A DNA stretch of 37,649 nt from Burkholderiales bacterium. Its GTDB lineage: Bacteria; Pseudomonadota; Gammaproteobacteria; Burkholderiales; Burkholderiaceae_C. A program made the translations under genes and the position numbers. Shown here piece by piece: positions 26,575 through 29,265 of this stretch. A model generated the notes under the pieces. The model was not told the DNA's origin. It saw only the letters and a list, made by a program, of their open reading frames with translations, and did no database searches. Numbering within the stretch: position 1 is the stretch's first letter; the number at the start of each line of letters is the position of its first letter. The DNA lies in the NCBI GenBank assembly GCA_016195825.1, contig JACPYV010000092.1:1-37649 (forward strand), given 5' to 3'.

Positions 26575-29265
<2,691 letters not shown>

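Follow-up and report, generated by a model that had tools for sequence, protein, structure and literature searches.

The closest described counterpart of the gene considered here is the dihydrolipoyl dehydrogenase (E3) of the 2-oxoglutarate dehydrogenase operon of Pelomonas sp. Root1444, a TIGR01350 family protein that shares 97% amino acid identity over 473 residues with the lpdA of our window. Judged by lpdA, this strain and Pelomonas sp. Root405 are the nearest named relatives (97% identity), and the source bacterium is Roseateles-like. A search of the literature on odhL/pdhL, natural suppressors and stops in metagenome-assembled genomes yielded one passage of use, from PMC4008487, in which the E3 of these complexes is termed 'nonspecific'; we make no claim that comparable cases are absent from print.

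The window is the whole of one contig (C130; 37,649 nucleotides) of the draft genome G000, which comprises 6.0 Mb in 207 contigs, is 93.35% complete and 0.41% contaminated, and is probably metagenome-derived. Its forward strand carries a SucA RNA motif (RF01070; 23544–23627, 81.5 bits against a cut-off of 40) upstream of sucA, which encodes the E1 component in an open frame of 951 amino acids (23632–26487; NF006914, 1380.4 bits, cut-off 764). This is followed by sucB, encoding the E2 succinyltransferase in an open frame of 416 amino acids (26575–27825; NF004309, 611 bits, cut-off 449), and by lpdA/odhL (27844–29265, forward strand), a frame of 474 codons including the final TGA. Elsewhere in the window, the stretch 13749–17660 encodes proteins with E1-E2 ATPase, MerR, ExbD and YiiD thioesterase domains and finds no good match in the homologous stretches of relatives.

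Reading the window directly, we find a TAG in frame at 28048–28050, which is codon 69 of lpdA, so that the uninterrupted reading frame of a dihydrolipoyl dehydrogenase is missing. The frame is open everywhere else and, with the stop translated as X, scores 542.6 bits against TIGR01350 (cut-off 408.8) across residues 5–471, bearing out an earlier sequence-only reading which had described an amber codon with the frame intact on both sides. An ATG at codon 92 opens a possible restart frame (28117–29265, forward strand), but its product would begin downstream of the GGGPGG and CTNVGC stretches, which we take to be the FAD-binding motif and the redox cysteines, respectively. Neither piece is therefore expected to work as an E3, and this includes the predicted restart product. 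A second copy of the locus was also sought: a 601-base DNA search matched only the window contig at high identity within the draft.

Apart from the stop, lpdA bears no sign of decay. Compared with six relatives, its private changes number one non-synonymous (the stop itself) and 12 synonymous, and the corresponding counts for sucA and sucB are 2:29 and 0:14. None of the 228 columns that are invariant across 109 aligned lpdA rows, a set to which column 69 does not belong, is broken by the window sequence. We found neither relaxed selection nor further lesions in these private changes, which rules out an old or established pseudogene and implies that the stop is either very recent or an error.

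The aligned rows, 29 loci from a search of relatives and 80 from a second search, show Glu at codon 69 in 79 cases, Asp in 23 and Asn in seven, and a stop in none of the 109. All 11 of the closest rows have GAG; they come from nine genomes, two of them occurring twice. The suggestion that relatives carry Glu at this position therefore holds for the close ones and not overall. The relatives search matched 54 of 60 genomes and returned 55 lpdA matches, of which one, that of our draft, contains a stop. Within the genus, lpdA was matched in 19 of 20 genomes and again only our draft has a stop, the 18 other matches being free of one, although two of these (G003 and G019) are cut off at codon 94 and so do not cover codon 69. 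A family-wide search matched 375 of 399 genomes and, among the matches listed, found a stop in our draft alone. This absence from every relative read is what would be expected of an error or of an isolated recent mutation. The truncation seemingly shared by G003 and G019, in both of which the lpdA match starts at codon 94, was set aside, because contig ends at the same base explain both: contigs G003:C108 and G019:C154 end at the same lpdA base (equivalent to window position 28122) and share an initial stretch of more than 90 bases, so that both assemblies probably broke at a common word.

If the base is real, the operon's own E3 would have been lost very recently by nonsense mutation, and the 2-oxoglutarate complex would then need the E3 of the pyruvate dehydrogenase operon, a single enzyme serving both complexes. 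We regard this as a tentative alternative that is less likely than not. It draws on a second, stop-free E3 in the same draft, at C7:72555–73973, which scores 470.4 bits against TIGR01350 (cut-off 408.8) and adjoins aceF (728.1 bits, cut-off 552.1) and aceE; the part of aceE that was fetched scores 822.5 bits over 543 residues, the cut-off of 859.9 applying to the whole protein. A third E3 match, on C203, falls under the TIGR01350 cut-off. The sequence-only reading had raised the possibility of a second lpd elsewhere in the genome, and the full-length gene on C7 is such a copy; given the 'nonspecific' label applied to E3 in the passage from PMC4008487, its product could serve the 2-oxoglutarate complex as well. 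That one of the 20 genus genomes (G017, 91% complete) is without a match to the lpdA E3 is a further point for this alternative. Against a genuine loss stand the 18 stop-free matches in the rest of the genus, two of them cut by contig ends, and the strong conservation of lpdA, from which the gene appears to matter.

For programmed readthrough or pyrrolysine insertion at codon 69, the single stop is all that speaks. The stop is not conserved, as readthrough would demand (0/109 relative rows; 0/18 other genus matches, two of which lack codon 69), and the best PylS match in the draft reaches 25.3 bits against a cut-off of 178.15, which disposes of pyrrolysine decoding. It had been suggested that the base following the stop might make it leaky, but this is a weak argument, as other in-frame TAGs of the draft precede differing bases and have no 3' context in common. 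Readthrough of the lpdA TAG is thus not supported, and we consider either mechanism extremely improbable.

General recoding of TAG had been dismissed on the grounds that at least four other genes of the window end in it. Of the four named, one of them a 'Cys-rich gene', three could be traced, namely a frame whose last base is 963, the thioesterase gene, which stops at 17660, and a gene for the binding protein at 20502–22070 on the reverse strand. We reach the same conclusion on wider evidence. Release factor RF1 of the draft scores as intact (507 bits, no stop), and the coding-like frames that TAG terminates number 171 of 1127 in the draft and 140 of 994 among relatives (p 0.50); both figures come from codon-model scans and include some false frames. 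Neither loss of RF1 nor depletion of TAG as a terminator is seen, and general recoding is ruled out.

A more restricted form of decoding is amber suppression, in which the strain would possess a suppressor tRNA and several of its genes would carry tolerated TAGs. No tRNA with a CUA anticodon was seen by ARAGORN in the window, among 37 tRNA loci of the draft or in 60 further stretches. The program called 36 of the 37 loci, and the remaining one shows a CUG anticodon loop by eye in the alignment. This locus (C168:90304–90407) was rejected as a suppressor candidate on account of its loop; it also overlaps a weak match to YrlA, a Y RNA-like family (30.7 bits, cut-off 69). The further stretches yielded a tRNA-SeC (reported at C7:49489–49584) and a tRNA-Ala outside the list of 37, so the list is incomplete. 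The tRNAs for Glu, Asp, Tyr, Trp and Ile were likewise not seen in the stretches examined of this 93.35%-complete draft. The missing suppressor is accordingly weak evidence, since it too could be unassembled.

Other genes of the draft are interrupted in the same manner. Of its 42 Pyr_redox_2 matches one has a stop (lpdA, TAG), as does one of its 106 ABC_tran matches (again TAG), in a check that scored 150 of 196 first-look candidates; among 147 Pyr_redox_2 matches in four relatives there are two with a stop, both weak and under cut-off. The interrupted ABC_tran match is a sugar ABC transporter ATPase gene (C19:13352–14860), otherwise open, with TAG at codon 85 (C19:13604). All 11 relatives read at this codon have Gln there, presumably that of the Q-loop, and the gene was matched in 16 of 20 genus genomes, with a stop in our draft only. 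Besides the stop it has two further private non-synonymous and six synonymous changes. Additional TAGs interrupt an Mpo1-like gene (C7:26241), an ABC-2 permease gene (C200:10400), a gene for HypA (C75:57571) and a gene named by eye as Fic-like (C196:50447). Pfam models cross the stop, translated as X, in four of these genes (ABC, Mpo1, ABC-2 and HypA). TAA is found in an S41/tricorn gene (C88:13031), where the pieces either side were searched separately, and in an unnamed gene (C4:31422), and TGA in an IS3-like transposase named by eye (C83:11976). Together with lpdA these amount to nine single in-frame stops, six of them TAG.

The systematic part of this count comes from two scans of the draft with a codon model, covering 830.2 kb and 395.7 kb, which returned 30 + 12 = 42 candidates. 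Relatives were scanned likewise, G008 and G012 contributing 400 kb apiece and six genomes their lpdA neighbourhood, and yielded 27 + 8 = 35. Each candidate was then assigned by eye to one of three kinds: the end of a gene with a new gene behind it, noise, or an interruption. A recheck of 11 doubtful ones brought two more interruptions in the draft (HypA and the unnamed C4 gene) and no further ones in relatives, and left our weighting of the explanations unchanged. After excluding two contigs picked for a known TAG, there are seven stops in 1,152.6 kb of the draft, whereas the 1,128.3 kb from relatives hold none that we judged real (p 0.016); it is six versus none if the transposase is excluded too (p 0.031), with the caveat that these counts depend on sorting by eye, on a codon model trained on the draft itself and on one locus repeated in six genomes. 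The excess points towards draft error or strain variation.

The same stops could be taken to favour suppression, given that six of the nine (in lpdA and the sugar ABC ATPase, Mpo1-like, Fic-like, HypA and ABC-2 permease genes) are TAGs in genes that are otherwise open. However, codon usage predicts a TAG share of 58–61% among random nonsense changes, and six or more of nine is unremarkable on that basis (P 0.46); two of the nine were moreover found because they were TAG, and the remaining seven include four. The intact RF1, the ordinary frequency of TAG terminators and the lack of a CUA anticodon in all that was searched also count against it. Amber suppression in this draft is therefore unlikely, and we give it very little credence. 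We hold an equally low opinion of its boldest form, a natural Roseateles amber suppressor whose unassembled CUA tRNA would read the TAGs of lpdA, hypA, the sugar ABC ATPase gene (at its Q-loop Gln) and other open genes while RF1 still ends most TAG genes.

The best explanation is a single-base difference, GAG in relatives and TAG in the draft, with no decoding mechanism behind it. We consider that the assembly, which is fragmented and probably metagenome-derived, probably carries at 28048 either a wrong base or that of a minority strain, which would have turned codon 69 of lpdA from GAG to TAG. Set against this is the absence of any window-wide surplus of private non-synonymous changes, the ratio of 75:225 (18 of 21 genes) lying inside the 0.16–0.57 range of relatives, and the consideration that real recent mutations would give the same picture, besides the caveat attached to the tally of further stops. 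Next in rank is a fresh null allele for which the second E3 would compensate. Thus, of the three options originally offered, error and backed-up pseudogene are those that the data favour, with readthrough having no positive sign beyond the lone stop itself. Novel decoding at codon 69 is not likely, error or very recent mutation being most likely. Were the base right, the locus would test whether one E3 can supply both 2-oxoacid complexes in Burkholderiales or, alternatively, would expose a natural amber suppressor. As things stand it is mainly a warning to consult the reads before a lone stop in a draft genome is called a pseudogene or recoding.

The second E3, from the pyruvate dehydrogenase operon of C7, belongs to the same family as lpdA and lies above the TIGR01350 cut-off but, unlike lpdA, it has an N-terminal extension that by eye resembles a lipoyl domain, is encoded next to aceE and aceF, and contains no internal stop. 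The lpdA of Pelomonas sp. Root1444 has GAG at codon 69, where that of the window has TAG.
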